This document shows, piece after piece, positions 34,200 through 52,760 of a stretch of 64,000 nucleotides of DNA. This stretch comes from Hanleya hanleyi (taxonomy: Eukaryota > Mollusca > Polyplacophora > Lepidopleurida > Hanleyidae), in assembly GCA_036873755.1 (NCBI GenBank), contig JAVTVY010025395.1:1-64000 (forward strand), written 5' to 3'. Below the pieces are notes generated by a model that was not told the DNA's origin, made no database searches, and saw only the letters and a list, made by a program, of their open reading frames with translations. The translations under genes were made by a program, and so were the position numbers. Within the stretch, counting starts at the first letter, position 1; every line of letters begins with the position of its first letter.

Positions 34200-34235
34200 A
34201 GTGAACAACAACAACGTGAGAACAACCACGTGAAA

Positions 34236-34395: not shown

Positions 34396-34850
34396 TGTAC
34401 ATTGAAATGATGGGCGGCCCAGTCATATACGAGTACATCGCGGTCCTCGGCCTTGGGGTTCTCGTCAAACATCTGTACGATGGTAGATAAGGTCCTTCCC
34501 CGGCATCGATGGTACAGATAAAACAAACAATATTGTCCGCACACGCTACTGGCCAGGCTTTGCAACGTTTGACTGTTCCAACACCACGTCTCTGTGCCTT
34601 GATCCATGAAGTCTGTTAAATCGGGATGGAGAGGTGGCAGGCCGTACGGGTCAAAGTATTCGCCCTGCTGTTCTGTTAAGTACACGCCCACCCAATGTTC
34701 ACCGAGCCGATCCATCGGGTCCGTGTTGAGAACGTATGCAGCAGGATACACACGGTCTAATGGGAACACATCTCTGGCGAACACCCCTTGAAAGACCATA
34801 CGTGTCCCTGGGTCATTCTCCAGCACGGTGGTTATCTGGTCTGTATCCAT
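34377..34850 (-). CDS. Adenain-like cysteine protease (virion maturation protease)
   Basis: The ORF encodes 157 residues from the ATG at 34848-34850, chosen because it lies one base after the stop of the upstream capsid ORF and gives the usual family start. An in-frame ATG 20 codons earlier would overlap the capsid gene. Visible features are H52 in GEHWVGVYL, D67 in YFDPYG, a Gln at 94, and C104 in SSVCGQYC, the His-Asp/Glu-Cys arrangement of adenovirus-type proteases (peptidase family C5). Such enzymes cleave capsid precursors during particle maturation. The length is slightly under that of adenain (about 200). The frame is open with all catalytic residues present, so it could be functional. 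Its 3' end has expanded into a hairpin repeat array. Confidence 0.9.
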   Translation of the reverse strand: MDTDQITTVLENDPGTRMVFQGVFARDVFPLDRVYPAAYVLNTDPMDRLGEHWVGVYLTEQQGEYFDPYGLPPLHPDLTDFMDQGTETWCWNSQTLQSLASSVCGQYCLFYLYHRCRGRTLSTIVQMFDENPKAEDRDVLVYDWAAHHFNVQVPFCA

Positions 34851-34851
34851 G

Positions 34852-37300: not shown

Positions 37301-37431
37301 GGCGACTGAGCTGTCCTGCTGCTGCTGTTGGTTTTAATAGGTGTTTCAGGCCTTGGGCGGTTGTGTCCGGCGTCGTGTTCGTCGCGGTGACTTGCTACGT
37401 GTCACGGCTCTGGAGATGTGGGGTGTCCTGA

Positions 37432-38169
37432 TCAAGGATGGTTTTTAAAGGTCTGAAAAGAAGGTGCCCGTTGTGGTGGTGGTGTTTTGGGGGGTGACTC
37501 CGGTTCCCATTCGGCTTCCCAAGAAGGTAGTGGGCCACTCGGCGATTGCTGGGTTCGCTGCATAAAGGCCCAGCGGTGGAGGTTCCCCACCAATTCCTGT
37601 GGTACATGCATGTCTTTCAAGCCTTGAGCGAAGACCTCCCATCCTCGAGGATCCGTGTGCGACCTGCGTTTACGCATCAGGTCATTCATTAAATCCGTCA
37701 TGTGGGTCCCGGGGACCACCTGATTCTGTACCAGTAGTTCGCCTTTATCATTCCAAGTCATGTTAGGATTCTGTTTCATCCGTTGTAATACCAGGCCAGC
37801 CTGTTTCTTGAACGATGCAGGTACACTCTTCAGGACTTCGTCTTCCACCCACTGTCGGGCTGTGGGTGGTACCCCTGGTAATGGCGGCTGTTGGAGCGGT
37901 GCTGAGGTCGGCGGTGTGTCACGTGGTGGTGGTGGTGGTGGTGGGGTAGAGAGGGTTTTGTATTGGTCCATGAACGTCATGTACCGTTGAAGCGTCTCAT
38001 TGTACCGTTGTACTTTCTCACTGTCGCTTAACCCCAGTCTCTGTAAGATCTGTTGCATCTCTCCATCGAGGGTGTTTATGGTCTTCACCGTAGGTGGGAC
38101 AGGGTAGGGCGATTGGAGGTTTTCAAGGAATCGTGGTTCGACGAGGACCATTTTTTTCGTGTGGTTCAT
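37432..38169 (-). CDS. Conserved Polinton-associated Pro-rich protein, function unknown
   Basis: The ORF encodes 245 residues. Residues 1-70 are helical (KKMVLVEPRFLENLQ; LDGEMQQILQRLGLSDSEKV). A Pro stretch including eight consecutive prolines lies around 76-83. Residues 105-175 form a compact domain with SVPASFKKQAGLVLQRMKQN and WNDKGELLVQNQVVPGTHMT. A Pro-rich tail closes it. I recognise this middle block as a recurrent, unnamed protein encoded beside capsid genes in invertebrate Maverick-like elements (from memory). It may be a scaffold or minor virion component (inference). The start codon follows directly on the frameshifted tail of the small basic protein, so the two may be co-transcribed. 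The frame is intact. Confidence 0.65.
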   Translation of the reverse strand: MNHTKKMVLVEPRFLENLQSPYPVPPTVKTINTLDGEMQQILQRLGLSDSEKVQRYNETLQRYMTFMDQYKTLSTPPPPPPPRDTPPTSAPLQQPPLPGVPPTARQWVEDEVLKSVPASFKKQAGLVLQRMKQNPNMTWNDKGELLVQNQVVPGTHMTDLMNDLMRKRRSHTDPRGWEVFAQGLKDMHVPQELVGNLHRWAFMQRTQQSPSGPLPSWEAEWEPESPPKTPPPQRAPSFQTFKNHP

Positions 38170-38171
38170 TG

Positions 38172-38508
38172 TCGGCCGAAGAGTCCACCCAATACTGGAT
38201 CCAACACGGAAGCGGCCAACGGTGCTAAGATGGCCTCAAAGAAAGCCGCCTTTCTGTAACACCTTTTTCTTTTGTGTTTGAGGGACCCGCTTCTGGACTA
38301 GGGTTCGGAGACCTGTCTTATGCTTGGCCAACTTGGTCTTCTGAGCCGGAGTCAGTGGTAAGTTGCCTTTTAACAGGTTGTACCCGATCTCGCACAGACA
38401 GCGTACAAGGCCAGGGTCCGCACCGCGTACAATTGTTCGGACCAACTCGGGTGGGGCCGTCTTCAATACACGGAGCCTCTGGGCGTGCTTCCGTACTCGC
38501 GCAGACAT
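38172..38508 (-). pseudogene. Small basic virion-type protein with frameshifted hydrophobic tail
   Basis: The start is taken as the second ATG (MSARVRKHAQRL, 38506-38508). About 90 residues follow, rich in Lys/Arg. Key blocks are LVRCLCEIGYNLLKGNLPLT and LAKHKTGLRTLVQKRVP, a combination recurring in Maverick-like elements of molluscs and cnidarians (from memory). The open frame stops at 38236 right after a GGFL block. In the next frame the sequence continues as the expected Gly/Leu/Ala-rich hydrophobic tail (ending GGLFGRQ) up to about 38172, so one indel has cut off the tail. A TATA-like GGATAAAAAGGGC lies at 38541-38553. A role as a DNA-condensing or membrane-active virion protein is inference. 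Confidence 0.65.
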
Positions 38509-38540
38509 CACGTACAACTAATGCCAGAACCCACAACTCT

Positions 38541-38553
38541 GCCCTTTTTATCC
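38541..38553 (-). promoter_or_regulatory. TATA-like box for the small basic protein gene
   Basis: The coding strand reads GGATAAAAAGGGC, 33-45 nt before the ATG at 38508. The spacing matches the boxes of the other genes in this cluster. Confidence 0.5.
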
Positions 38554-38601
38554 ACCTCAGAGAACAGAGACAAAGTCAACCATGCTGTGGTATTCATTCT
38601 T

Positions 38602-38660
38602 TTTATTATCCCCATCATCAAACACACACTCCAGCTGGGGGAGCCACTGTGGGTGTGTTT
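38602..38660 (-). terminator. 3' hairpin plus polyadenylation signal after the ATPase
   Basis: The plus strand at 38620-38660 reads AAACACACAC ... CTGGGGGAGCC ... GGGTGTGTTT, an inverted repeat starting 4 nt after the ATPase stop. The coding-strand AATAAA lies at 38602-38607. The same hairpin with the same GGCTCCCCC loop occurs at 44957-44991 and 49277-49311 near the C2H2 genes. Confidence 0.6.
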
Positions 38661-38663
38661 ACA

Positions 38664-39271
38664 TTATTTTTGCATGTACACGTGGTGAGCCTCTCCGGGA
38701 AAGATGCCGGTCCGTAGTCGAAGGTGGTCGGGGGTGGCTTGCTTGAGGTCGAAGAGCATATACCCGTGTTGAGGGGTTGTCGCATCTTTGAAGGCTTCCA
38801 ACGCAAACGGTGTGCGGCCGGGATACATCTGTCTCGCCAGGTGCAGCAGTTGAGTGGTATCTCTCGGGTTTTTGAAGACCACCAGGTAGTGGGCATTTAA
38901 GCTGATGTTCCGATGTTCTTGTTTTTACTGAACAGATTCTGCACAATGTAGATGATGCTGAGCCGTCGATTATGGCTGCCTTTGGTAAAGAGTTGGGTGA
39001 CCCGCGCATCCGTCTCCGCCATGAGATCATCCAGAACCACCAAGGTGTCGGGTTCCAAATCGGCCAGGTTGGGTAGGCCTTCCACGAACGTGATGTGGGG
39101 CATTGCTGCATACGCTGTCTGCCATTCTCCGTAACACCACACGACTCGGGCAATGGGTGGGGTGATCATGCTGTCGGCGTGTTGAAGGAGCTTCCGGACG
39201 AAGTGCGTTTTGCCGGAGCCCGTCGGTCCTACGATGACGCAAGTGAAGTGATGCTGCCACCGAGGGTCCAT
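38664..39271 (-). pseudogene. DNA-packaging ATPase (A32/FtsK-HerA type), one frameshift
   Basis: The N-terminal frame (39271-38897) has Walker A GPTGSGKTH at residues 15-23, Walker B TLVVLDDLM and the LFTKGSHNRRLSIIYIVQNL segment, typical of the Polinton/poxvirus A32 family that pumps genome into capsids. After NLFSKNKN the frame is lost. Matching sequence resumes in the next frame (38882-38664: MVFKNPRDTTQLLHL, YPGRTPFALEAFKDAT, HGYMLFDLK, PGEAHHVY). A 1-2 nt indel near 38900 therefore truncates the protein before the C-terminal third. The start overlaps the end of the membrane-protein ORF by about 43 bp. It is paralogous to, but clearly distinct from, the zinc-finger ATPase at 47103-48329. 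Confidence 0.85.
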
Positions 39272-39753
39272 GGTTCGAGGTGTATCCGCTGTTGTGGTAA
39301 CCCGCTCTTGTAAATTTCGTACGAGTGAACTGGAGTGGTGGTGGTGGGTACAACGTCGGTTGTCGTTGTCTGTTCACTGCGAGTGATGATGGTGGCGGGT
39401 ACAACGTCGGTCGTCGTTGTCTGTTCACTGTGAGGGATGAAATCCGGTGGGTCTTCAGACGTACTTAGTGTACTTGGTGTAGCTGTGGAGCTTGGTGTGG
39501 AGTTCGATGTGGCTTGTACACGGGGTGTGGTGGTGGCTGGGCTCGATACGGGGTTGACCGGTGCTATCTGTAGACTGGTTTCACTGATGGTTGGTGTTCT
39601 CAGTTGGTTAAGTAGCGTGCTGACATAGGCTACGTCGTAAAACACACCTCCGTACAACACACTCAGCAGGGTTAGCACTATCACCACAAAGCCCACTTGC
39701 GCTTTGCGCGTTTTGGGAGACGCTGTGTTCAGAGGCAGCTGCTGTTTGTCCAT
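39229..39753 (-). CDS. Single-pass membrane protein with Thr/Ser-rich mucin-like ectodomain
   Basis: The start is set at the ATG at 39751-39753 (MDKQQLPLN...), preceded at 39801-39810 by the TATA-like ACTATAAAGC. The longer frame (to 39867) would run into the integrase gene. Of 174 residues, the first ~20 are basic and polar, followed by a transmembrane helix (VGFVVIVLTLLSVLYGGVFY, about residues 21-40). The remaining ~130 residues are dominated by Thr, Ser and Pro. Two tandem SEQTTTTDVVP units come from a 33-bp DNA duplication (39350-39440). A type II or signal-anchor topology with a heavily O-glycosylated exterior is inferred. I do not recognise a family. It lies between integrase and ATPase, where some adintovirus-like elements carry membrane proteins. 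Confidence 0.6.
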   Translation of the reverse strand: MDKQQLPLNTASPKTRKAQVGFVVIVLTLLSVLYGGVFYDVAYVSTLLNQLRTPTISETSLQIAPVNPVSSPATTTPRVQATSNSTPSSTATPSTLSTSEDPPDFIPHSEQTTTTDVVPATIITRSEQTTTTDVVPTTTTPVHSYEIYKSGLPQQRIHLEPWTLGGSITSLASS

Positions 39754-39800
39754 AGCACCGTGGTCGAACGTGGAATGAAGGATGACGGTAGTGGTGTCTG

Positions 39801-39810
39801 GCTTTATAGT
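39801..39810 (-). promoter_or_regulatory. TATA box for the membrane-protein gene
   Basis: The coding strand reads ACTATAAAGC, about 48-57 nt before the ATG at 39753. It overlaps the last codons of the integrase gene. Confidence 0.5.
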
Positions 39811-40877
39811 CGTTTCACCTGGTTGGCAGCGACCCAGGAATTGAAGGAACTGGGCCAGCCTTGCCATTTGACGAAATGAAACAGTTTGCCACGTCGACGT
39901 TCCGTTTTCAAAATCTGCTCCACCGTGTAGTAGTCTTGCTTTGTTTTTACGACAGGCTGTAATTCCATCTCGTAAAACGTCCCTAGCAACGGTTCCCCTT
40001 GAAGATCTTCCAGTTCATAGACTCGCTGCTGTTGAGGTAGGCGCCGTTTAATCAGGAAGTGCTCAGCGCTCCAGTTGGGCAAGTAACTTTTCTCAAATTG
40101 ACCTTTGACTTTACTGATCCGTACAGGGTCCCCGACCTTGTACACCGCCTTCGGCGTTCGCTGCGATTGCCTGGGGTACAAGACACACCGGACTTGGGCT
40201 TCATTGCGTTGGGTCACGGTAATGGGGGCTCTCTCTATACTCCGATGATAGGCTCGATTGTGATCACTCACAAGTTTCGGGAGAACATCGATGTACCGTC
40301 TTGTATTCTTATAGGTGAAATATTTATACATACGGCCTTTGAATGTCCTGTTGAACCTTTCCACCACGGAAGCCTTGGTCTCGTTGTACGTATGGAAGAA
40401 AAACACCTTCTGGGCTTTCAGAAACTGTTGGAACGGTCTGTTGAGGAATTCCGTGCCTTCGTCGGTTTGCAAATACAAAGGTTTGCGCCCGGTCTTGAAG
40501 ATGTCTTTGAACGCCGCTATGAGATTCGCTCCCGTTTTCGTCCGGATGGGTACCACCCACGCATACTTGGATAGGATATCGATGCACGTCAAGATATACC
40601 GATTCCCATCGTTGTGTTTGGCAAAGGCGCTCATATGGACCAAATCCGCTTGCCACTGGGCATCTATTCCTCCCACGATGACCCGGTTCCGTAGAAAATG
40701 GCGACGGACAGATCGATGTAAGGTATAGGTGTCTTGTTTTCTTAACCAATCTCGGACTTGGGCACGTTGTATCCCCTGGGGTTTGGCCGCTCGATAGAGA
40801 GCCGACAATGCACTATAGGCCGCCGGACTGTCAGGACTGTAGTATAAGTTAGCCAACACCTTCTCCCAGCGCTTCAT
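39804..40877 (-). CDS. Retroviral-type DDE integrase with C-terminal chromodomain
   Basis: The gene is intact, 357 residues. The rve core has D78 (WQADLVHM), D139 (LQTDEGTEFLN) and E173 (ASVVERFNRTFK), spaced D-x60-D-x33-E. An N-terminal helical region (1-60) precedes it. An SH3-like segment (AVYKVGDPVRISKVK) and a chromodomain (about 316-357: YTVEQILKTERR...FHFVKWQGWPSSFNSW) follow. This domain order is diagnostic of the Maverick/Polinton integrase, which inserts the linear element into host chromatin. The chromodomain may direct target choice. The start ATG (40875-40877) follows a coding-strand TATAAATAAA at 40911-40920. No internal damage is visible, in contrast to the capsid genes. Confidence 0.95.
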   Translation of the reverse strand: MKRWEKVLANLYYSPDSPAAYSALSALYRAAKPQGIQRAQVRDWLRKQDTYTLHRSVRRHFLRNRVIVGGIDAQWQADLVHMSAFAKHNDGNRYILTCIDILSKYAWVVPIRTKTGANLIAAFKDIFKTGRKPLYLQTDEGTEFLNRPFQQFLKAQKVFFFHTYNETKASVVERFNRTFKGRMYKYFTYKNTRRYIDVLPKLVSDHNRAYHRSIERAPITVTQRNEAQVRCVLYPRQSQRTPKAVYKVGDPVRISKVKGQFEKSYLPNWSAEHFLIKRRLPQQQRVYELEDLQGEPLLGTFYEMELQPVVKTKQDYYTVEQILKTERRRGKLFHFVKWQGWPSSFNSWVAANQVKRL

Positions 40878-40910
40878 GGTGACAAATGATGATGGACCCT
40901 GGCTCTATCG

Positions 40911-40920
40911 TTTATTTATA
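40911..40920 (-). promoter_or_regulatory. TATA box for the integrase gene
   Basis: The coding strand reads TATAAATAAA, about 34-43 nt before the integrase ATG. It partly overlaps the stop region of the upstream 151-aa gene. Confidence 0.55.
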
Positions 40921-41371
40921 ACGGGTATATCTTGGGCCGGAGGTTCTGATTTTCTTCGTTGGCTTCCACAGTGTCCATGGTAAATAACCAGTCCAACTCG
41001 TCTGATGACCGCTTGATAAGCACTTGATCCACATCTACCACGGCATCTTCCAATGCAGACCATAGATCAGGGTGAAGGGTAAAATGCACTGTACCCCCAT
41101 CTAGCCGAGCCAATTGAGCAAAGAAAGGGCCGCGTCGGATGTACACATCGTGACACAAGTGGGTGAGGTCGCCGTCCAGTTCACCAGACAACACCCGTTT
41201 GAATTTGGTCCAGCCCTGCCGGGACAGACGAATGTGGGCCGGGCACGGTTGTGTAGGGTCCGCATCACAGATGTCTCCCACCTCCTCCATGATATCGACC
41301 TTATCCGCATACACGTGCAGGAAAACCTCGGGGCTCAAGCTGAGATACGCCAGTATTATATGCTCCGTCAT
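40916..41371 (-). CDS. Unknown 151-aa acidic protein
   Basis: This is an intact ORF, MTEHIILAYLSLSPEVFLHV..., rich in Asp and Glu. It has two beta-rich looking stretches (DVYIRRGPFFAQLARLDGG and TVHFTLHPDLWSALEDAVVD). The second pattern (strand, basic turn, strand, then W-x-x-L) vaguely recalls PC4-type coactivator folds, but I cannot support that assignment. It is the first gene of the leftward cluster. A strong TATA (CTATAAATAC on the coding strand, 41410-41419) lies 40 nt before the ATG. An early or regulatory role is only a guess from its position. Confidence 0.6.
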   Translation of the reverse strand: MTEHIILAYLSLSPEVFLHVYADKVDIMEEVGDICDADPTQPCPAHIRLSRQGWTKFKRVLSGELDGDLTHLCHDVYIRRGPFFAQLARLDGGTVHFTLHPDLWSALEDAVVDVDQVLIKRSSDELDWLFTMDTVEANEENQNLRPKIYPL

Positions 41372-41409
41372 GGTCAGTACGTGAATGGTACCAGATTTGA
41401 CTGTCTCTC

Positions 41410-41419
41410 GTATTTATAG
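41410..41419 (-). promoter_or_regulatory. TATA box for the 151-aa gene
   Basis: The coding strand reads CTATAAATAC, about 39-48 nt upstream of the ATG at 41371. It is the first promoter of the leftward gene cluster. Confidence 0.6.
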
Positions 41420-41464
41420 GGAGAATCCCGTGAGATCAAAGGATCGGGTGGTCATGTCACCCCC

Positions 41465-41990
41465 GAAATGTTCCCCCCCCCCCTAATTATTTTTCTTACC
41501 CCTTGAGCTAGGGGGCTGAAACTTATTACACTATACCCCTAGTTCAAGCTCTACCAGAAAATGTAAAAAAAAATCCAAGATGGCCGCTTTGATGACGTCA
41601 CAGTGATGTCATTTTCAAAAACGGCATTTTTTGGTCGATTTTTCGGTCAGATTTTCCGAATTTTTTATTTTTGCAATTTCTCTACAAAAACTGTACGAAA
41701 AATTAGCAAATATTAATGTGATATGAAATAAAATATTTTTTGCCCACTTTTCATTGAGAAAAAGCAGAAATTTTGAAGAAATTTGACAAAAACATCGCTT
41801 TTCTGGTACCCAAGTTGCCGCCATCTTGATCCTCTGCTCGGGCGGTTATGCAAATCGGCTCAAGATGACCGAAATAAGATAAACTATAAAGTCACGGAGT
41901 TTCAGCTCTTCATTTTTTGCCGTTCCGGAGATACATCGAATTTTGAGTTATGCGCGCTCGTACAAATGACGTCATAATTTTGGCTTTTTA
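41465..41990. repeat. Interspersed repeat (AATCCAAGATGGC / GATGACGTCACAGTGA family), uninterrupted copy
   Basis: It is collinear with 52030-52760 and, in inverse orientation, partly with 63715-63895. Shared blocks include TTGAGCTAGGGGGCTGAAACTT, AAGCTCTACCAGAAAATGT, AAAACGGCATTTTTTGG, CTTTTCTGGTACCC and CGTTCCGGAGATA. It follows a poly-C run. It is non-coding and serves as the empty-site reference for the insertion at 52487. Confidence 0.8.
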
Positions 41991-42697
41991 GTCCCTCTTA
42001 GCAACTCCTTATTAGGCCTTGAGTTAAAATCAAACTCACAGCGGAACCAAACCCATATACTCCAATCACCTACCGCTGGCCTTCAATTATTCCTTGCAAC
42101 AGAGACTGGAAAAAATATTACAAACAATTCACTTCTTTGGCAGAGGTTGCCTAACGGGTTAACGGACCGGAACTATTTTTAATAGTGGTCTTGTCCCTAT
42201 ACGAGAGTGACGGTGTGAAATAACGAATTTTACAAAACGAGGAACGCAAAATTATAACTTGGTGGAACAGAGAACAGAGAAAATAGGAAAATATGGTGAA
42301 CGTGGAATACGTCCAGAACGTGTGTACGCAAAATTAGTTTTCCTCAGAACTGAGAACGGATAATGAAAATTACCCCAAAACGGAGTACGAAAATACCCCT
42401 TGCCCCCCCGCGATGTTGGGTTTCACCTGTATGGCTGCTCCTTATTCAATGACATGGGCTTGGGCCAGATGTTCAATATTTAAATTTTTTGGCTTTCTTT
42501 CCCCATGTTTCATTTATGGCCAGGATATCTATGTTGTGTCTGTTTGCCAGGAGAGAAAAATAGTGTTCAGCAGAGTGGAAAGACGTTAATTAATAAAAGG
42601 TTCATTGGGGGCGCTTGGCGCTTGGCTGAAGACGGCAGTAGTAGTATTAACGGATTACAACGCGTATTGACCTACTTTTTTGTTCCCCCGGGTAAAA
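41991..42697. other. No gene seen
   Basis: No ORF with a domain. In a complete Maverick this side of the cluster could have carried the polymerase; none is visible. Confidence 0.4.
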
Positions 42698-42775
42698 TTT
42701 GTGGCGGAAGTGTGGCGGGGTTTCCCAGTGGGGGATTCCCCAGTGGGGGTTTCCCAATGACGATCACGTGATCAA
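42698..42775. promoter_or_regulatory. Triple kappaB-like cluster with ETS-like and E-box motifs
   Basis: GGGGTTTCCC (42717-42726), GGGGGATTCCCC (42730-42741) and GGGGGTTTCCC (42745-42755) all fit the Rel/NF-kappaB consensus GGGRNNYYCC. A GCGGAAGTG ETS-like site lies near 42703, and a palindromic GATCACGTGATC occupies 42762-42773. The second and third kappaB sites come from a short duplication (CCCAGTGGGGG). Binding is inferred. Confidence 0.45.
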
Positions 42776-42894
42776 GGCATGTCCTGACTTGTTCTGGGTT
42801 GTACAGTTCTGCCATACGGAGGATGGGTACTAGTATTTCGCTGACGTCCTAGTAATAAACATAATCTATAGGTGTTGTACCATGTTAATGTGGG

Positions 42895-43235
42895 AGTGGG
42901 GTCAAAATGGCGGTTGATGTGGGATGGGACAAAATGGCGGCCTTTGGGATGGGACAAAATGGCGGTTGATGTGGGATGGGACAAAATGGCGGCTGATGTG
43001 GGATGGGACAAAATGGCGGCTGATGTGGGATGGGACAAAATGTCGGCTGATGTGGGATGGGACAAAATGGCGGCTGATGTGGGATGGGTCAAAATGGCGG
43101 CCTGTGGGATGGGACAAAATGGCAGCTGATGTGGGATGGGACAAAATGACGGCTGATGTGGGATGGGACAAAATGGCGGCTGATGTGGGATGGGACAAAA
43201 TGGCGGCTGATGTGGGATGGGACAAAATGGCGGCT
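42895..43235 (+). repeat. ~28-bp minisatellite with a YY1-like core in each unit
   Basis: Thirteen units of GGGATGGGACAAAATGGCGG-CTGATGT occur. Ten keep AAAATGGCGG and three carry single changes (ATGTCGG, ATGGCAG, ATGACGG). AANATGGCGGC is the YY1 consensus. The array ends exactly where the left palindrome arm begins. ORFs across it on both strands are repeat artefacts. Confidence 0.85.
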
Positions 43236-44690
43236 GAGTCCGATGGAGTTGTATGAGGTATCAAAGTGAAGTCTAGGTGAAGGGGTATTTGATGGCTGGG
43301 TGGGTGCATGTAAAATTTTTCCTGAAAAAAAATAATACGGAACACGGACTTTATCGAAAAACCTGGGAAAATGCCTATATGGGGTATGGGGAGTATATAG
43401 GTCGCCGGGCTTAACGGGGCTTGCCTATCAATAGAGTTATCTCCCCCTAGTTCCAGGGTGGGTGTATGTAAAAATTTTCCTGAAAAAATACGGAACACGG
43501 ACTTTATCCTAAATTACGTGAAAATGCCTATATGGGGTATGGGGGGTATAGGACCATCCTGGGAAACCTACTCCTCGACATTTGCGGTATGGGTTGTGGG
43601 GTCTCGTTTTCTTAGTCTCGTCATTTAGAACATGATAGGAAGTGTCCCGGCACGAATCGGTGAAATTTTTGAAAAAGTACGATATAGCCCCATATAGTCC
43701 CATACTGGGGTATAGGATCAATGTTTGTCCCCCTGGGAAACGTACTTCTATACATTTGCGGTAGGGTTGTGGGGTCTCGTTTTACTCGTCTCGTCAAGAC
43801 AAACACGATAGGAAGTGTCCCGAAGCGAATCGGTGAAATTTTTGAAAAAAGTCACCGAGGCCTGGGTAGGCCCATAGGCCTATACTGCATGGCTATGGGT
43901 GTATAGGCCCATACGGGGTGGACATGTTGGAGTCTAGGTGAGTCCCTAATGGTCCAATGGGGTCGGTTGAGGTCTTATTTTGAAGCTCTCGTGGAGGAGC
44001 ACTTGACTACACTAATGGTTCGTCTGTGTTCAATAGTCTGCGCATGCGCAGTCTGGCCGTAGTATAGAAAACAGGCATTTTGGGTGCTATGTAGGGGTGT
44101 GTTTGGGATAGAGATGGGCTATTCACGGTTCGAATGGGTCGTGTGAGGTGTCAAAGTGAAGCTTGTGTGGGGTAGAGTCAGAATGGTGTGTTTTTGAATG
44201 CAAGTCGCGTTAACCTGCGCATGCGCAGTTGGTTGTAGTAAGTAAAGTGGCCATTTTGGGGCAGTGAAGGAAGGTATTTGGGGTCGAGATGGTCTATTCA
44301 CGGTTCGAATGCGTCCTGGAAGGTGTCATCTTGTAGTTCTCGGGGTGTACATTCCGGTTTGAGGGATGTTCCTGTCATCTGTGACGTCATCAGTGACGTC
44401 ATCGGTACGAGTAGTAGCGAAAGTGGCCATTTTCGGGCAGTACATGAAGGTATTTGGGGTCGAGATGGGCTATTCACGGTTCGAATGCGTCCTGGAAGGT
44501 GTCATCTTGTAGTTCTCGGGGTGTACATACCGATTTGAGGGATGTTCCCGTCATCTGTGACGTCATCAGTGACGTCATCGGTACGAGTAGTAGCGAAAGT
44601 GGCCATTTTTGGACAGTACATGAAGGTATTTGGGGTCGAGATGGGCTATTCACGGTTCGAATGCGTCGTGTGAGGTGTCATCTTGTAGCA
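43236..44690 (+). repeat. Terminal-repeat block II (plus orientation; outer part of the left palindrome arm)
   Basis: R1 modules lie at about 43301 and 43455, and R2 modules at about 43613 and 43785. NRF-1-type palindromes occur at 44038-44051 and 44215-44228. The tandem 176-bp units (44273-44670) each carry paired TGACGTCA sites (44382, 44394; 44558, 44570). Confidence 0.8.
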
Positions 44691-44835
44691 ACGTCCGCCA
44701 ACGCCAAGCTCAACGCTTCAACGCCCTGGTGAATTAGCCCAAAAGCTCTGATTTTCATGAAATTGTCATTAATTCATTGGAAATGCAGTGACACCCGTCA
44801 ACGCTCATAGTTACGCCTTAACGCTCTAGCATAAC
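44690..44835. repeat. AACGC-rich module, copy 1
   Basis: Repeated CAACGC/TAACGC words flank a conserved centre (GGTGAATTAGCCCAAAAGCTCTGATTT ... CATTGGAAATGCAGTGAC, cited in part). The same ~150-bp module recurs at 45766-45930, 48345-48505 and 49430-49575, so each copy of the 190-aa C2H2 gene is bracketed by two copies. Confidence 0.75.
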
Positions 44836-44939
44836 ACCATGATATAGACCGGAGAGAGAACAACAACAACAACAAGGATGACACATGAGAGAACAACAAA
44901 AACAACAAAAACAACAATTTTTTTTTTTCATATAGTTTA

Positions 44940-44991
44940 TTTTCCCCTCCATCATAACATACCCACGCTGGGGGAGCCGCGTTGGGTATGT
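44940..44991 (-). terminator. 3' hairpin and polyadenylation signal (left arm)
   Basis: ACATACCCACGCTGGGGGAG...TTGGGTATGT (44957-44991) forms a stem with a GGGGGAGCC loop. The coding-strand AATAAA lies near 44937-44942. It is the inverse counterpart of 49277-49332. Confidence 0.6.
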
Positions 44992-45139
44992 TTACAATTC
45001 AAGAAAGACTCTTGTCCAATCAGAGACCGCCATTTGCATGTCATGTTCGTTCTTGCCCGTTAGATGTATTCTTGTCCAATCAAAAGTCGCCATTTCAGAG
45101 AGTTCCGTCTTCGGCCATGCTCGCTCTGAACCGTTTGTT

Positions 45140-45712
45140 CTAATCATCGTCAGGCAGGCCTGGATATTCATCGGGCAGCATGTCCTGAAACAGTTGTTTG
45201 CGCATTCTAATCGCATTTTCCAGGGCCTCTGTGGGTGGTAAACCCATATCCTCTTCCAAGTGACGCTTGGTCTTCATGATGGACCTGTGCGTGGGGTCCC
45301 CTTTCATTTCAAGCGGTAGTAAGGTATACTGTTCATAGATCGCCATGGCTGTTTTCCTGATGCGGGGGCGCATTTGGGTGTACGTCTGTTGTAAATTATC
45401 CTCTCCGGCGTCCTCGATCGCTTCAGCGTGAGCATTGATAGCTGCTGTCACAATACGATCCCAGAAGGTAGGTTCTGCCTCACTTTCCTGGGATGAAGGC
45501 TGATTCTCTGAGGTCAAGCTCTCCATATCAGTAGATAGACTGTCAGCCATCTTGGATTCGGTATCAGTCGATGCACTCTCATCAATCTCTGTATCAGTAT
45601 CTGCCTCAACGGGCTCCTCGGCGTCTTCAGTCCCATGTATATTTTTCTGGTGTCGCATCATATCGTAATGTCTGGTGAACGTGCGTTCACACTCAGAACA
45701 AGTATAAGCCAT
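45140..45712 (-). CDS. C2H2 zinc-finger protein with shared C-terminal helical domain (left copy)
   Basis: The ORF encodes 190 residues. An N-terminal finger is YTCSECERTFTRHYDMMRHQ (C5-x2-C8-x12-H21-x4-H26). A ~55-residue acidic Ser/Thr/Glu/Asp linker follows. The helical C-terminal domain begins FWDRIVTAAINAHAEAI and includes MRPRIRKTAMAIYEQYTLLP and ALENAIRMRKQLFQDM. The domain aligns with the end of the zinc-finger ATPase (see 47103-48329). A coding-strand TCTATAAAAG box lies at 45758-45767, 46-55 nt upstream. The twin at 48556-49128 differs by one residue (Ala in place of Thr in INAHAE). A role as a DNA-binding regulator or packaging partner is inference. Confidence 0.75.
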   Translation of the reverse strand: MAYTCSECERTFTRHYDMMRHQKNIHGTEDAEEPVEADTDTEIDESASTDTESKMADSLSTDMESLTSENQPSSQESEAEPTFWDRIVTAAINAHAEAIEDAGEDNLQQTYTQMRPRIRKTAMAIYEQYTLLPLEMKGDPTHRSIMKTKRHLEEDMGLPPTEALENAIRMRKQLFQDMLPDEYPGLPDDD

Positions 45713-45765
45713 GTTGACGGTTGAACGACGACTGTGCGTGTTTTGGGAATACGCTCGCTTTTATA

Positions 45766-45930
45766 GACAGTAACGCCCATCAACGCTTAGCTCAACGCTT
45801 CAACGCCCTGGTGAATTGGCTCAGAAGCTCTGATTTCATGGAATTGACACCAATTCATCGAAATGCAGTGACGCTCGTCAACGCCCGTCGTTGCGCCTTA
45901 ACGCTCGTCTCAACGCTTTAACACACTTTC
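45766..45930. repeat. AACGC-rich module, copy 2
   Basis: Upstream-side partner of 44690-44835. It lies between the TATA box of the C2H2 gene and the stop of the truncated ATPase copy, and contains about eight AACGC/AACGT words. Confidence 0.75.
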
Positions 45931-45938
45931 TTAATGCT

Positions 45939-46902
45939 TTAACGTTGTTTAATGATGCGTTCGAACAAATGTTTCTTTTGTGCTATTGCTCTGACATATG
46001 CCGCTTTCCAATTCATGCCCGAGGTTTTCAACATCGACGCTGTTCTTTCAATTTCCATATGGACTGGGTCCTTATCCAACAATTTCATATGGGTCAGTAA
46101 GTCGACATATTGCTGACGTAAAGCCCGTCGTAGTCTGGGTGCCAATCTGTTATGGGCTAAAATTGCAGCTTCCTCTTTCGAATACCCTTTGCGTTGAAAC
46201 TTGTTTCCTGTGGCCTCCAAAATCTCGCCCATCTCGGCGTCCATACTTTCTTTGAACAAATCCTTCCATAGCCTCGAGTTCACATTATGTTCTTCAACCT
46301 CAGGTTGGGCCTTCACGGTTGGGTGATATTGCGGGACTGATGGTATGAAGCGGACCCGCTGTATGGGGGTGGGCTGCTGCTGCTGCTCTGCCAGGAGTGG
46401 ACTCGGCGGATGGTGTAGGGGTATATGCCGTTGTGGTGATTCCTCGCCGGGTAACAGGTGGGTCGTCAGCCGACGATCTTCGGGGGTATGGGCTTTTAAA
46501 TCTACGATCAGGTAGCCGTACGGACGAATTGTCGCTTCTTGAAACGCCCGCATAAAATGGTCAATGTTCTGAGGATAAATTCGACTACCAAACACACGGA
46601 TTTGTGCTCTGTCAATGGGATTGGAGAACACTACAAAGTATTGGCAGTTCAAGGCAATATCTCTGGACGCCTTCCCTTGAGGAAAGAGATTCTGAGTCAA
46701 ATAGATGACGGACAGATTGCGATGATGGGACCCTTTGGTGAATAGGTCGGCGATTTTCGAATTGTCCTTGGCCGCACTCATCAGATCATCGACCACTACC
46801 ACGCTGGTCTGCTCGGAATCGAAGTAATAGGGTTCGTCTATGTCGTGAGGAATTCCTGGGACAAAGCTCACATTCTGTAACCTTGTAGTTTCGTAGGCGG
46901 TG
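45939..46902 (-). pseudogene. Zinc-finger ATPase, left-arm copy lacking the finger and Walker A
   Basis: It is identical apart from about five residues to residues 90-408 of the intact copy at 47103-48329, including Walker B (SVVVVDDLM) and the C-terminal domain. Homology stops at AYETTR, the palindrome boundary. The frame then runs into a Thr/Asn/Ala minisatellite-encoded stretch and, up to 47240, into sequence antisense to the start of the right-hand copy. It therefore lacks the C2H2 finger and the P-loop. It may still be transcribed from the TATA-like region in the spacer, but any product cannot bind nucleotide by the usual P-loop. Confidence 0.85.
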
Positions 46903-47040
46903 GTGGCGTTGGTGGCGTTGATGGTGGCGTTGGTGGTGGCGTTGGTGGCGTTGATGGTGGCGTTGGTGGCGTTGGTGGTGGTGTTGGTGGTGTGCGGTGG
47001 TGGTGTTGGTGGAGTCGGTGGTGGTGTGTGTGGTGGTGGT
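46903..47040. repeat. GGTGGCGTT-type minisatellite at the palindrome centre
   Basis: About fifteen 9-bp units (GGTGGCGTT, GATGGTGGC, later GTGGTGGTG) lie exactly at the inner end of the left arm. The right arm has unique coding sequence at the corresponding place, so the centre is asymmetric. Confidence 0.85.
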
Positions 47041-47046
47041 AGAGTC

Positions 47047-47058
47047 TTTAAATATAGG
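47047..47058 (+). promoter_or_regulatory. TATA-like box for the zinc-finger ATPase
   Basis: TTTAAATATAGG lies 45-56 nt before the ATG at 47103, in the unique part of the palindrome spacer. Confidence 0.4.
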
Positions 47059-47102
47059 AATGAACATGTGTCCATCATCAGTCCATATGTATTGGTCGAC
47101 TG

Positions 47103-48329
47103 ATGAACATGTCGTGTACGTGTACGTTCTGTGAGAGAGCATTCTCTCGTCGCGATAGTATGCTCAGGCACATTCAACGCAAACACAACCAAGAGACACA
47201 GCCGAGTCCCGCTATAGGTCCAACAAGAGCAGTAGAGCATCCCTATACGATGACGGTGAGCGGCCCTACAGGGTGTGGAAAGACATCCTGGGTGATGAAG
47301 TTCTTAGAGGGAGGTGTGGCAACCCCAGCTCCGACACGTGTTGTTTGGTGTTTTAGCCAATGGCAGCCCGCCTACGAAACTACAAGGTTACAGAATGTGA
47401 GCTTTGTCCCAGGAATTCCTCACGACATAGACGAACCCTATTACTTCGATTCCGAGCAGACCAACGTGGTAGTGCTCGATGATCTGATGAGTGCGGCCAA
47501 GGACAATTCGAAAATCGCCGACCTATTCACCAAAGGGTCCCATCATCGCAATCTGTCCGTCATCTATTTGACTCAGAATCTCTTTCCTCAAGGGAAGGCG
47601 TCCAGAGATATTGCCTTGAACTGCCAATACTTTGTGTTGTTCTCCAATCCCATTGACAGAGCACAAATCCGTGTGTTTGGTAGTCGAATTTATCCTCAGA
47701 ACATTGACCATTTTATGCGGGCGTTTCAAGAAGCGACAATTCGTCCGTACGGCTACCTGTTCGTAGATTTAAAAGCCCATACCCCCGAAGATCGTCGGCT
47801 GACGACCCACCTGTTACCCGGCGAGGAATCACCACAACGGCATATACCCCTACACCATCCGCCGAGTCCACTCCTGGCAGAGCAGCAGCAGCAGCCCACC
47901 CCCATACAGCGGGTCCGCTTCATACCATCAGTCCCGGAATATCACCCAACCGTGAAGGCCCAACCCGAGGTTGAAGAACATAATGTGAACTCGAGGCTAT
48001 GGAAGGATTTGTTCAAAGAAAGTATGGACGCCGAGATGGGCGAGATTTTGGAGGCCACAGGAAACAAGTTTCAACGCAAAGGGTATTCGAAAGAGGAAGC
48101 TGCAATTTTAGCCCATAACAGATTGGCACCCAGACTACGACGGGCTTTACGTCAGCAGTATGTCGACTTACTGACCCATATGAAATTGTTGGATAAGGAC
48201 CCAGTCCATATGGAAATTGAAAGAACAGCGTCGATGTTGAAAACCTCGGGCATGAACTGGAAAGCGGCGTATGTCAGAGCAATAGCACAAAAGAAACATT
48301 TGTTCGAACGCATCATTAAACAACGTTAA
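47103..48329 (+). CDS. C2H2 zinc finger - packaging ATPase - C-terminal helical domain fusion (intact copy)
   Basis: The ORF encodes 408 residues. Residues 7-28 form a C2H2 finger (C7-x2-C10-x12-H23-x4-H28). Walker A is GPTGCGKTS (54-62). Walker B is NVVVLDDLM (121-129), followed by LFTKGSHHRNLSVIYLTQNL and FSNPIDRAQIRVFG, as in A32/FtsK-HerA packaging ATPases. After a Pro/Gln-rich linker (about 250-285), residues 305-408 form a helical domain (LWKDLFKESM, LAPRLRRALRQQYVDLL, WKAAYVRAIAQKKHLFERII) that aligns with the C-terminal domain of the neighbouring 190-aa protein. The ATPase core thus sits between modules that also exist together without it. The finger could provide sequence-specific genome recognition during packaging (inference). 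Spacing to the next gene is 226 bp. Confidence 0.85.
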   Translation: MNMSCTCTFCERAFSRRDSMLRHIQRKHNQETQPSPAIGPTRAVEHPYTMTVSGPTGCGKTSWVMKFLEGGVATPAPTRVVWCFSQWQPAYETTRLQNVSFVPGIPHDIDEPYYFDSEQTNVVVLDDLMSAAKDNSKIADLFTKGSHHRNLSVIYLTQNLFPQGKASRDIALNCQYFVLFSNPIDRAQIRVFGSRIYPQNIDHFMRAFQEATIRPYGYLFVDLKAHTPEDRRLTTHLLPGEESPQRHIPLHHPPSPLLAEQQQQPTPIQRVRFIPSVPEYHPTVKAQPEVEEHNVNSRLWKDLFKESMDAEMGEILEATGNKFQRKGYSKEEAAILAHNRLAPRLRRALRQQYVDLLTHMKLLDKDPVHMEIERTASMLKTSGMNWKAAYVRAIAQKKHLFERIIKQR

Positions 48330-48344
48330 AGCATTAAGAAAGTG

Positions 48345-48505
48345 TGTTAAAGCGTTGAGACGAGCGTTAAGGCGTAACGACGGGCGTTGACGGGCGTCAC
48401 TGCATTTCGATGAATTGGTGTCAATTCCATGAAATCAGAGCTTCTGAGCTAATTCACCAGGGCGTTGAAGCGTTGAGCTAAGCGTTGATGGGCGTTACTG
48501 TCTAT
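48345..48505. repeat. AACGC-rich module, copy 3
   Basis: Right-arm counterpart of 45766-45930. It directly precedes the TATA box of the right C2H2 gene. On the plus strand the words read GCGTTGA/GCGTTAA. Confidence 0.75.
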
Positions 48506-48510
48506 AAAAG
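48501..48510 (+). promoter_or_regulatory. TATA box for the right C2H2 gene
   Basis: TCTATAAAAG lies 46-55 nt before the ATG at 48556. The left arm has its mirror copy at 45758-45767. Confidence 0.6.
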
Positions 48511-48555
48511 CGAGCGTATTCCCAAAACACGCACAGTCGACGTTCAACCGTCAAC

Positions 48556-49128
48556 ATGGCTTATACTTGTTCTGAGTGTGAACGCACGTTCACCAGACAT
48601 TACGATATGATGCGACACCAGAAAAATATACATGGGACTGAAGACGCCGAGGAGCCCGTTGAGGCAGATACTGATACAGAGATTGATGAGAGTGCATCGA
48701 CTGATACCGAATCCAAGATGGCTGACAGTCTATCTACTGATATGGAGAGCTTGACCTCAGAGAATCAGCCTTCATCCCAGGAAAGTGAGGCAGAACCTAC
48801 CTTCTGGGATCGTATTGTGACAGCAGCTATCAATACTCACGCTGAAGCGATCGAGGACGCCGGAGAGGATAATTTACAACAGACGTACACCCAAATGCGC
48901 CCCCGCATCAGGAAAACAGCCATGGCGATCTATGAACAGTATACCTTACTACCGCTTGAAATGAAAGGGGACCCCACGCACAGGTCCATCATGAAGACCA
49001 AGCGTCACTTGGAAGAGGATATGGGTTTACCACCCACCGAGGCCCTGGAAAATGCGATTAGAATGCGCAAACAACTGTTTCAGGACATGCTGCCCGATGA
49101 ATATCCAGGCCTGCCTGACGATGATTAG
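48556..49128 (+). CDS. C2H2 zinc-finger protein with shared C-terminal helical domain (right copy)
   Basis: This is the twin of 45140-45712, with one residue difference. It has an N-terminal finger, an acidic linker and the helical domain. The N- and C-terminal modules both resemble those of the upstream ATPase fusion, suggesting that one arose from the other by gain or loss of the ATPase core. It is followed 149 nt after the stop by the conserved hairpin and AATAAA. Both copies are open. Near-identity between arms implies recent duplication or gene conversion rather than separate selection. Confidence 0.75.
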   Translation: MAYTCSECERTFTRHYDMMRHQKNIHGTEDAEEPVEADTDTEIDESASTDTESKMADSLSTDMESLTSENQPSSQESEAEPTFWDRIVTAAINTHAEAIEDAGEDNLQQTYTQMRPRIRKTAMAIYEQYTLLPLEMKGDPTHRSIMKTKRHLEEDMGLPPTEALENAIRMRKQLFQDMLPDEYPGLPDDD

Positions 49129-49276
49129 AACAAACGGTTCAGAGCGAACATGGCCGAAGACGGAACTCTCTGAAATGGCGACTTTTGATTGGACAAGAAT
49201 ACATCTAACGGGCAAGAACGAACATGACATGCAAATGGCGGTCTCTGATTGGACAAGAGTCTTTCTTGAATTGTAA

Positions 49277-49332
49277 ACATACCCAACGCGGCTCCCCCAG
49301 CGTGGGTATGTTATGATGGAGGGGAAAATAAA
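49277..49332 (+). terminator. 3' hairpin and polyadenylation signal (right arm)
   Basis: ACATACCC (49277-49284) pairs with GGGTATGT (49304-49311) around a loop containing GGCTCCCCC. AATAAA follows at 49327-49332. The layout is the same as at 38602-38660 after the other ATPase. Confidence 0.6.
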
Positions 49333-49429
49333 CTATATGAAAAAAAATTGTTGTTTTTGTTGTTCTCTCATGTGTCATCCTTGTTGTTGTTGTTGTTCTC
49401 TCTCCGGTCTATATCATGGTGTTATGCTA

Positions 49430-49575
49430 GAGCGTTAAGGCGTAACTATGAGCCTTGACGGGCGTCACTGCATTTCCAATGAATTAATGACAATTCCATG
49501 AAAGTCAGAGCTTTTGGGCTAATTCACCAGGGCGTTGAAGCTTTGAGCTTGGCGTTGGCGGGCGTTGCTACAAGA
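49430..49575. repeat. AACGC-rich module, copy 4
   Basis: Right-arm counterpart of 44690-44835, downstream of the C2H2 gene. It marks the inner edge of terminal block III. Confidence 0.75.
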
Positions 49576-51190
49576 TGACACCTCACACGACGCATTCGGA
49601 CTAAGGATGATCCCTCTCTACACCAAATACCTTCCTTCACTGCCCCAAAATGTCCACTTTACTTACTATAACCAACTGCGCATGCACAGATTAACGCGAC
49701 TTGCATTCAAAAACACACCATTCTGACTCTACCCCACACAAGCTTCACTTTGACACCTCACACGACCCATTCGAACCGTGAATAGCCCATCTCTATCCCA
49801 AACACACCCCTACATAGCACCCAAAATGCCTGTTTTCTATAATACGGGCCAGGCGGCGCATGCGCAGACTATTGAACACAGACGAACCATTAGTGTAGTC
49901 AAGTGCTCCTCCACGAGAGCTTCAAAATAAGACCTCAATCGACCCCATTGGACCATTAGGGACTCACCTAGACTCCAACATGTCCACCCCGTATGGGCCT
50001 ATACACCCATAGCCATGCAGTATAGGCCTATGGGCCTACCCAGGCCTCGGGGACTTTTTTGAAAAATTTCACTGATTCGCTCCGGGACACTTCCTATCGT
50101 GTTCTAAATGACGAGACGTGAAAAACAAATCCAAACAACCCTACCGCAAATGTATAGAAGTAGGTTTCCCAGGGGGACAACTATTGATCCTATACCCCCA
50201 GTATATGCAAATTTCACCGATTCGCTCCGGGACACTTCCTATCATGTTCTAAATGACGAGACGAGTAAAACGAGACCCCACAACCCTACCGCAAATGTAT
50301 AGAAGTACGTTTCCCAGGGGACAAACATCGATCCTATACCCTCAGTATGGGACTATATGAGGCTATATCGTACTTTTTCAAAAATTTCACCGATTCGCAC
50401 GGGGACACTTCCTATCATGTTCTAAATGACGAGACGAGTAAAACGAGACCCCACAACCTATACCGCAAATGTGGAGAAGTAGGTTTCCCAGGATGGTCCT
50501 ATACCTCCCATACCCCATATAGGCATTTTCCCGGATTTTTAGATAAAGTCCGTATTCCGTATTTTTTCAGGAAAATTTTTACATACACCCACCCTGGAAC
50601 TAGGGGGAGATAACTCTATTGATAGGCAAGCCCCGTTAAGCCCGGCGACCTATATACCCCCATACCCCATATAGGCATTTTCCCAGGTTTTTCGATAAAG
50701 TCCGTGTTCCGTATTTTTTTCAGGAAAAATTTTACATGCACCCACCCAGCCATCAAATACCCCTTCACCTAGGCTTCACTTTGATACCTCATACAACTCC
50801 ATCGGACCATTATTGGCTCCCCTAGATACCAAAACGTCTATTTGCATACCCTTGGGCCACCGCGCATGCGCAGAATGCCGATATTTCAACCCCACACCCA
50901 GTCCATCAGATGCCTCCTTCACGAATGCTTCACTTTGATACCTCATATGACCCCATCGGACCATTAGGGGCTTCCCTAGCTCCAAAACGTCTATTTGCAT
51001 ACCCTTGGGCCACCGCGCATGCGCAGAATGCCGCTATTTCAATCCCACACCCAGCCCATTAGATGCCCCTTCACCTAAGCTTCACTTTGATACCTCACTC
51101 GACCCAATCGGACCATTTTATCTAGGGACTACTCTAGGGGCGACCGAATCACCGCCAGACATGACCGCATCACCGCGGATGAATACATCT
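49576..51190 (-). repeat. Terminal-repeat block III (inverse orientation)
   Basis: R2 modules lie near 50050, 50215 and 50385. R1 modules lie near 50545 and 50700. R3 modules at 50780-51120 have NRF-1-type GCGCATGCGC cores at 50861-50873 and 51014-51026, plus one at 49856-49867. It ends near GCGGATGAATACAT (about 51177-51190), the same closing word as block IV at about 59675-59688, so this is a candidate true end of the element. Confidence 0.8.
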
Positions 51191-51349
51191 TTATACAATT
51201 AAAATTAATTAATTAATTAATTTATTTATATATTTATTCTGTGAAAACATGCAAATGTTCGAATCAAGGGAGATAACCCGAAATTTGTCAAAAATCAAAA
51301 AAGTGCAAACAGAGTTACCTCCCCCGGCAAAATGCGCGCTGTAATACGC

Positions 51350-52029
51350 TTTATATACTACTCAGGTAGGTGGCTGTCTGAGAAAATCAACTTTAAACTA
51401 ACGCCGCTTGTGATTACACATATGGGCATGTGGACCAATATAATAAACGATATAGCGAAATAGCATCCAAATAATATATCATGGTTCGAGGTAAATGTTC
51501 TTGTCCAGAAAGTTCGAAGGATTGCTCCCGCCGAATAGTCTGTTTTGTTTTGTCGAGTGATTGGAAATATCAAAAGTCCGTCTCACGAAAAGGTAGATAT
51601 TTCATGTAGGGAGCTATTGTCGAAGCCTCGCTGCAGATGAAAAGGCATGGGTGGTGGCACATTGCTGTCCCCAGGTTTGGCTATTGCAAGCATTGTCGCG
51701 TGGTCCTTACAAATAAAAGTAAAATATGAATATGAAAGAATAAAATATAGATGTCAAAATAAATAGGCAGAATTGTCGTGATGGGCTTATTACGAGATCC
51801 TGGAGAATACCGACAAATAGCTCGCACGAATTCTTCATAGCATTACCACCAGATATAGCATCTTGGATTACCTAGATTGCTCCACATAACTAACGCTAAT
51901 GCACGTAATGCCATGTTTTCTTTGAAAACTTGGATGAAATTCGCTCAAAGGTGAGTGAAAATTGATCCTAATAGCAAACTTGAGTGGAAGTCTCTCAAAT
52001 GTTAATTAACCCTATCTGGCTTGGTCTTT
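51350..52029. other. No gene seen
   Basis: Unassigned AT-rich sequence. The outer-end motif near 51325 (ACCTCCCCCGGCAAAA) is the inverse of one at about 32510. Confidence 0.4.
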
Positions 52030-52760
52030 TGGGAGGTATCTTGGCCTGGGGGGAGGGGGGGGGGGCCGAAGTGGCCTAATTATTTTTCTTATCTCTTGAG
52101 CTATGGGGCTGAAACTTAGCACACCATACCCTTGGGCCAAGCTCTACCAGAAAATGTCAAAAAAAATCCAAGATGGCAGCTTTGATGACGTCACAGTGAA
52201 ATCATTTTCAAAAACGGCATTATTTGGTCGATTTTTCGATTTTTCATTCATGCTATTTCTTCACAACTGCATGATAAATTAGTAAATATTACTGGGATGT
52301 GAAATAAAATAGTTTTTGTCCACTTTTCATCGCGGAAAAGCATAAATATTGAAGAAATATGACGAAAAATCACTTTTCTGGTACCCCACGTGGTCGCCAT
52401 CTTCAATTTACCCATGATCTTCTGCTCGGCGGGTCATGCAAAAAGGCTCAAAATGACCCCAATATGATAAACTATAAAAATACAGGCGTCTAGTCCGTCC
52501 TTCATAATTCAGCGGTCGTCCATTAAAGAATATCCGCGTCCATAATCCAAAGACCTATTCCATATCCATATAACAGTATTAGCACCAAATTCAAAAAGAC
52601 AATCATAGTATACTTGATCGTTCTAAAGTCGTTATCTAGAGAATGATGTATCTCAGTCACGCTTTGATTGTCACGGAATTTCATCTCTCCATTTTTGTCA
52701 TTCCGGAGATAGCACAGAAAGTTTGGTAGGGGGGGGGGGACATTTTGTCCCCCGGTCAGG
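52030..52760. repeat. Interspersed repeat as at 41465, interrupted by an insertion
   Basis: It is collinear with 41465-41990 up to AAACTATAAA (about 52487). It resumes at CACGGAATTTCATCTC (about 52670) through CATTCCGGAGATA. The intervening ~185 bp is the terminal-repeat-like sequence found also at 55972 and 63462. It ends in a poly-G run and ACATTTTGTCCCCC. Confidence 0.75.
52487..52670 (+). mobile_element. Solo Penelope-like terminal-repeat insertion (GTCTAGTCCGTC family)
   Basis: Block GCGTCTAGTCCGTC, then CGTCCATTAAAGAAT, CGCGTCCATAATCCAAA and TGTATCTCAGTCACGCTTTG. It matches 55972-56300 and 63462-63575, and the inverse at about 60768-60840. These sites neighbour the two GIY-YIG/RT elements, so it is likely their terminal repeat. 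Confidence 0.55.

Follow-up and report, generated by a model that had tools for sequence, protein, structure and literature searches.

A palindromic locus in Hanleya hanleyi: a proposed defective Polinton-derived element with extended terminal inverted repeats

Results

We analysed positions 1 to 64,000 of contig JAVTVY010025395.1 (forward strand; assembly GCA_036873755.1) of the mollusc Hanleya hanleyi, a stretch of 64,000 nucleotides that we call the window. Between 43,238 and 50,807 it holds a palindrome whose two arms each carry genes for a putative packaging-type ATPase and for a 190-aa C2H2 protein, followed outward by tandem terminal modules; the element around it likely spans 42,640-51,362, 8.7 kb from one putative end motif to the other. 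An initial annotation had taken the palindrome for an integrated snap-back genome within a Polinton-like element. We read it as a probable Polinton derivative that is defective and has extended terminal repeats, and do not class it as a Polinton proper. The features of the element are as follows.

42,637-42,647, plus strand: AGTAGTAGTAT, the likely end motif on the left side of the palindromic element, within which AGTAGTAT begins at 42,640; a GC step lies at about 42.6 kb
42,648-43,237, plus strand: left outer end, unmirrored; about 240 bp of sub-terminal sequence and a 27-bp minisatellite (42,888-43,237, 13 copies)
43,238-44,903, no strand: outer part of the left arm; tandem terminal modules (A fragment, P, B, C, D; our labels), an inverted match to 49,365-50,807 with differing unit numbers
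45,140-45,712, minus strand: left copy of the gene for the 190-aa C2H2 protein, one residue off the right copy (Pfam zf-C2H2 22.2 bits, cut-off 25.2)
45,939-46,900, minus strand: left ATPase gene copy, cut short at the fold point and without its first 89 codons
46,901-47,367, no strand: asymmetric centre; GGT/GGC-rich array (46,896-47,039) and the sole copy of the ATPase 5' end
47,103-48,329, plus strand: right copy of the ATPase gene, full frame of 408 aa; encodes a C2H2 finger, a P-loop ATPase putatively of packaging type and a helical C-terminal domain
48,556-49,128, plus strand: right copy of the gene for the 190-aa C2H2 protein, both of whose ends resemble those of the ATPase protein
49,365-50,807, no strand: outer part of the right arm; terminal modules D, C, B, P and part of A
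50,808-51,362, minus strand: right outer end, unmirrored; A units (153 bp) as far as 51,117, followed by sub-terminal sequence and the likely end motif ATACTACT at 51,355-51,362

The palindrome is real: an inverted repeat of 2 kb at 99% is far above chance, and gapped local alignment joins all of its blocks. Together, a repeat search and this alignment place the arms at 43,238-46,900 and 47,368-50,807 around a 467-bp asymmetric centre. The repeat search returned core arms at 44,904-46,900 and 47,368-49,364 (1,997 nt, 99% complementary, spacer 467 nt) and, outside this core, more inverted blocks that reach 43,238 and 50,807; the gapped alignment from these two positions to the centre contains several large gaps in the outer arms. 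The constant sum of paired coordinates, 94,268, which the initial annotation had reported over 1.76 kb, holds over 44,921-46,900 (1,980 nt), where 17 substitutions (0.86%) separate the arms and indels are absent; one of 12 nt lies immediately outside. Twelve of these substitutions are genic, with six codons changing the residue and six not, and five are intergenic. As had been claimed, the two ATPase copies differ at five residues in 320 shared codons and the two C2H2 proteins at one; synonymous codon changes likewise number five and one. Beyond 43,238 and 50,807, a comparison of 42,400-43,237 with 50,808-51,800 revealed no similarity between the two sides.

The centre, annotated as 464 bp, measures 467 bp, and is asymmetric as described. 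A 5-bp microhomology marks the fold point, with GGCGG at 46,896-46,900 and CCGCC at 47,368-47,372. Because the 5' end of the ATPase gene is present only once, one ATPase copy was cut at the fold: the left copy starts at codon 90, abutting the GGC-rich array. The mirror-image gene pair of the initial annotation therefore stands insofar as both genes are in both arms, but the left ATPase lacks its zinc finger and P-loop. Outside the modules, the long frames within 43.3-50.2 kb are the two gene pairs and frames overlapping them, only.

Vertebrate Mavericks end in (AGT)2//(ACT)2, according to extracts of PMC8097293, and the 8-mer AGTAGTAT holds this published Polinton/Maverick end motif, (AGT)2. 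It occurs four times in the window (3.2 expected by composition), once outside each of four terminal arrays and always correctly oriented; beyond the palindromic element, it places the likely end of a neighbouring element at 32,479 and that of a third, solo terminus at 59,826. Among the 4,234 8-mers that occur exactly four times it alone falls once per zone in the right orientation, and it is the sole 8-mer of any count present in all four 600-nt zones outside the terminal-module arrays, a width chosen knowing that the left motif sits 598 nt out; zones of 300 or 450 nt have no 8-mer in all four, and those of 600, 700, 800 or 1,000 nt have AGTAGTAT only. The shorter AGTAGT occurs 23 times in the window, counting both strands, with seven occurrences inside the four 600-nt zones against 0.43 expected. 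The terminal modules recur at other element ends within the window, and we regard them as Polinton-related because AGTAGTAT stands outside them.

The motifs lie 598 nt (left) and 245 nt (right) beyond the last shared module. The exact right end is less certain, and may lie further in than 51,362, because a rival ACTACT occurs at 51,128-51,133 (and also at 59,610-59,615) and the GC content of 51,189-51,362 is host-like (0.293). Two pieces of the right outer end, 51,115-51,133 and 51,175-51,188, are identical in the terminus of the third element, and 28 nt of the left outer end (42,821-42,848) resemble 33,974-34,001 within the neighbouring element. Thus the arms do run out to terminal modules, as annotated, but the annotated feature ended before the likely element ends.

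The 408-aa ATPase protein has 616 relatives at E ≤ 0.001 among 3875 candidates, and we aligned 12 of these relatives; a protein that fuses a finger, an ATPase and a helical domain has many relatives. Three of the best 120 of these 616 bear names taken from chromosome-size contigs of the coral Oculina patagonica. The Pfam matches of the protein (finger, Pox_A32) are all under their curated cut-offs. Its identity is 39% to an ATPase piece in the neighbouring element and 41% to the ATPase of L001, a distant element in the genome contigs, which matches Adeno_IVa2 above cut-off. The structure model has low confidence (mean pLDDT, the predicted local distance difference test score, 64), so that the helical C-terminal domain seen in it is a hint only, and the fold search was weak: nothing reached E ≤ 0.001 in PDB or BFVD, and the best named viral matches, adenovirus IVa2 and packaging ATPase, came at E 0.03.

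In a single comparison, the C2H2 protein resembled both ends of the ATPase protein, the finger and the C-terminal domain, at E 1e-6 and 6e-6, and similar sequence lies on both sides of its gene, about 1.07 kb apart. Because the protein ends are alike and a repeated sequence flanks the gene, the C2H2 gene is probably a duplicate of the adjoining ATPase gene minus the ATPase part. None of 65 candidates proved to be a relative of the C2H2 protein.

We took the features of Polintons from extracts of PMC11071308 and PMC8097293. The end motif and the inverted repeats bear out the initial label of a Polinton-like element, but polymerase, integrase, capsid, protease and target duplication were not found inside it; the long frames of 43.3-50.2 kb include no integrase, capsid or protease gene. 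A tblastn search of the whole window, palindromic and neighbouring elements included, gave no match to a protein-primed DNA polymerase B (best E 0.98), with the polymerase of L001 (DNA_pol_B_2 70.8 bits, cut-off 25.8) as a single, distant query that a strongly diverged gene could escape. L001 itself has no long inverted repeat in the repeat search. Because polymerase, integrase, capsid and target duplication were sought within the palindromic element and not found, we do not class it as a Polinton proper.

The window looks eukaryotic and is AT-rich, with a GC content of 0.39 over 6-32 kb and an island of 0.48-0.52 at 32.5-51.2 kb. Two further elements lie in it.

32,479-41,481, minus strand: neighbouring element, probably truncated; left end motif, terminal modules, and protease-like, capsid-like, ATPase (frame broken) and integrase plus chromodomain genes
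58,137-59,826, minus strand: third element, a solo terminus; terminal modules and end motif

In the neighbouring element the integrase and chromodomain match PF00665 and PF00385 above cut-off, and the protease-like protein matches Peptidase_C5 under it (17.1 bits, cut-off 21.3). The capsid-like piece has no Pfam match and 664 relatives at E ≤ 0.001 among 5006 candidates; the best 120 of the 664 include two each from the molluscs Liolophura sinensis and Littorina saxatilis, and two that are named F54H12.2-like, which we take to be a label given to Maverick capsid proteins. The capsid-like and integrase genes at 34-41 kb probably belong to this second, truncated element and not to the palindromic one. 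Its genes at 34.4-41.4 kb stop before a repeat starting at 41,482, where GC content falls, to rise again at about 42.6 kb, and the element is probably cut there.

We also considered, and set aside as less probable, one 18.9-kb element (32,479-51,362) containing both the 34-41 kb genes and the palindrome. In its favour, a 23-bp block is common to both end sequences, and the 52 nt that follow the motifs at 32,479 and 51,362 score above all 1000 shuffles, so that the neighbouring and palindromic elements are at least of the same family. We disfavour it because likeness between the two sets of terminal modules is only about 78% although the neighbour keeps long open frames, because 1.15 kb of host-like DNA (GC 0.396) with the repeat 41,482-41,890 intervene, and because the flanks agree in only two of six bases.

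Some other repeats were seen in the window. The repeat at 41,482-41,890 recurs at 52,075-52,478 in direct orientation (80.6% identity), so that a copy lies some 0.7 kb beyond each likely end of the palindromic element, which is probably coincidence. The match of the third terminus to other termini ends exactly at 58,137, and a diverged inverted repeat (57,167-58,137 and 61,612-62,574) ends there too. Tandem arrays occupy 3,411-4,930 (22/44-bp units) and 21,917-23,860 (18-22-bp units), the latter giving overlapping long open frames that are unlikely to be genes. Rfam gave no match in the window at gathering scores.

Discussion

The best explanation that we can offer for the palindrome is a defective Polinton-derived element of about 8.7 kb, whose terminal inverted repeats (TIRs) grew to about 3.5 kb when a strand folded back or switched template at the 5-bp microhomology; judging from the sequence, we give this origin an even chance of being right. 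One end, with both genes and the terminal modules, would have been copied in mirror image onto the other, replacing any genes there. A strand that read inward from this end may have stalled or broken in the GGC-rich array, which lies upstream of the ATPase gene. The 3' end of the strand would then have paired with the GGCGG/CCGCC match inside the ATPase gene and been extended back toward the end. By an alternative route, a broken left end could have invaded the right terminal repeat and copied it inward. Afterwards the inner arms would have gained about 0.9% of substitutions, and the tandem modules would have gained, lost and probably exchanged units. The switch would have happened during replication or after integration, two settings between which the sequence does not choose. 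The sequence itself shows the arms and how nearly identical they are, the asymmetric centre with the 5-bp match, the motifs beyond the arrays and the unlike outermost ends; from these we infer a single template switch as the source of the arms, its timing before integration, and protein-primed replication.

Two observations favour copying within one element. We found no mirrored flanking DNA, and the left outer end looks like the original, different end of the element, because 42,640-43,237 has its own end motif and a 28-nt patch in common with the neighbour; copying of the right end onto the left, by template switch or repair, is therefore favoured. With a divergence of about 1% between the inner arms, the difference between the outermost ends is unlikely to be due to age alone.

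Other observations weigh against this explanation. The 5-bp match adjoins a GC-rich repeat and is weak evidence. The outermost ends, 42,640-43,237 (598 bp) and 50,808-51,362 (555 bp), are unrelated save for the motif and 50 nt of doubtful similarity (equalled by 25 of 1000 shuffles), and at least one of them was therefore uncopied or later replaced. Pairing three left with six right end candidates in all 18 combinations revealed no 6-bp target duplication, and 42,637 and 42,640 agree with the right ends 51,133, 51,188 and 51,362 in at most two of six bases; integration as an 8.7-kb unit is therefore not established. No non-palindromic parent was found, and viral contigs yielded no confirmed relative when queried with the ATPase, the ATPase alignment, the terminal-module pattern and the capsid-like piece.

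The outer arms speak on both sides. Against the explanation, they are far more different than the inner arms, and patchily so, with identities of 94.5% over 605 nt and 89.5% over 780 nt; six of 21 left-arm pieces of at most 80 nt match the right arm at 98.75% or more, and the others match at 77-97.5% or have no partner. Extra tandem units amount to about 350 bp in the left arm and 145 bp in the right. The block 43,327-43,546 of the left arm is 95% like the third terminus, which equals its likeness to the right arm; overall, the outer part of the left arm differs from the third terminus by about 9.5%. In favour of the explanation, the third terminus is the most distant of the three over the outermost 490 nt: of 48 variable sites without gaps, it has 29 to itself, the right arm 13 and the left arm five, and one differs in all. 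In three sets of module comparisons, one of which uses units that are possibly not true counterparts, the base at 27 of 32 differences also occurs elsewhere among the units of its own arm. Exchange of units after the duplication would therefore suffice, although unproven, to cause the outer-arm differences. If it does explain them, gene conversion that homogenised the inner arms selectively need not be invoked, though it may have acted.

Among the 18 pairings, the best joined 42,637 with 59,826 (flanks GACGGC and GACGTC, five of six bases; the others agree in none to two). We did not accept it, as these two ends do not look like partners. The chance of one 5- or 6-base match among 18 pairings is about 8% by our arithmetic, and no viral gene was found at 51.4-58.1 kb, where we inspected open reading frames and scanned three against Pfam, which counts against this pairing.

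The palindrome might be the fossil of a replication accident, in which a displaced protein-primed strand folded at the 5-bp microhomology in the GGC-rich array and the self-complementary mini-genome integrated as the 8.7-kb unit; we entertain this origin only tentatively. The replication of Polintons is deduced from their polymerase gene and is not known to have been observed. Were this origin true, the locus would be direct sequence evidence for strand-displacement replication of Polintons, and evidence for defective Polinton genomes riding on a helper. Fold-back products preserve the break and the switch point in their sequence; with a number of loci of this kind, genome sequences would suffice to test the mode of replication and to tell whether Polintons shed helper-dependent defective genomes.

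The terminal repeats could instead have been extended after integration, by host repair or by recombination between the element's own inverted repeats, as proposed for the transposon Galileo. This requires no replication intermediate, and both Galileo features described in extracts of PMC3573991, recruited internal sequence and unequal units, are also present here, so that such recombination may account for the arms equally well; an extra large deletion would be needed, however, to lose the rest of the element yet keep both end motifs. The sequence offers nothing to tell this origin from our preferred explanation, and on balance we think it unlikely.

The snap-back reading of the initial annotation is borne out in part. 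In its strict form, it has a displaced single strand folded, filled in and integrated, with the left outermost end later replaced by the minisatellite and neighbouring sequence. The arms do mirror one kind of element end around an asymmetric loop, and adeno-associated virus (AAV) has an analogous class of genome (extracts of PMC8235507). Defective adenovirus genomes carry inverted end duplications, although our literature search found no such paper. Equal ends would be expected, but outside 43,238 and 50,807 the two sides have only the motif and the doubtful 50 nt in common, the left end having its own motif and neighbour-shared patch, and neither a target duplication nor a polymerase match was found; we regard the strict form as decidedly doubtful.

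Two separate insertions in opposite orientation, with the inner parts of both deleted, are improbable. Elements do cluster here, with two other ends (32,479 and 59,826) within 27 kb, and both the outermost ends and the outer arms differ. Yet the inner arms are only 0.86% apart, against about 9.5% between the left outer arm and the third terminus, and two near-identical young copies would have to lie side by side, with a deletion ending inside both. The assembly fold-over that the initial annotation had listed as an alternative, palindromes being a known failure mode of long-read data, is very improbable: 17 substitutions, and no indel, are scattered over the 1,980 nt of the inner arms, whole tandem units are present in one arm and missing from the other, and the flanks are different.

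Our literature search, which covered titles and the beginnings of abstracts, found no paper on palindromic or mirror-ended Polintons, which is no proof of absence. The palindromic element shares with Polinton/Maverick elements the (AGT)2//(ACT)2 end motif, inverted terminal repeats and a putative packaging-type ATPase, while an integrase and a capsid-like gene occur in the neighbouring element; it differs in that no polymerase, capsid or integrase gene and no target duplication was found, and in its terminal repeats of about 3.5 kb, which lie beyond the 46-1,447 bp of intact vertebrate elements given in extracts of PMC8097293, and would do so even if recombination after integration made the palindrome. 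In Galileo copies of Drosophila mojavensis, internal sequence was recruited into the TIRs, and the numbers of tandem units are unequal between the TIRs of one copy (extracts of PMC3573991). The palindromic element resembles the 2RT copies (extended or recombinant TIRs) in both respects, which is a likeness of mechanism and implies no Galileo membership; loss of the transposase gene from these copies is a further likeness. Galileo belongs to the P-element superfamily, and in the same extracts its longest TIRs are about 1.26 kb and the recruited part is 121 bp, compared with two genes here. AAV snapback genomes hold one moiety with its inverted terminal repeat (ITR) in self-complementary form, symmetric or asymmetric; AAV is a single-stranded parvovirus, and its snapback genomes were seen in particles (extracts of PMC8235507), whereas ours is seen as a genomic locus. 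In MVA-CR19 one terminus was duplicated and the opposite side lost, giving an expanded ITR; unlike the palindromic element, it is a viable poxvirus that keeps a long unique core (extracts of PMC11680203).

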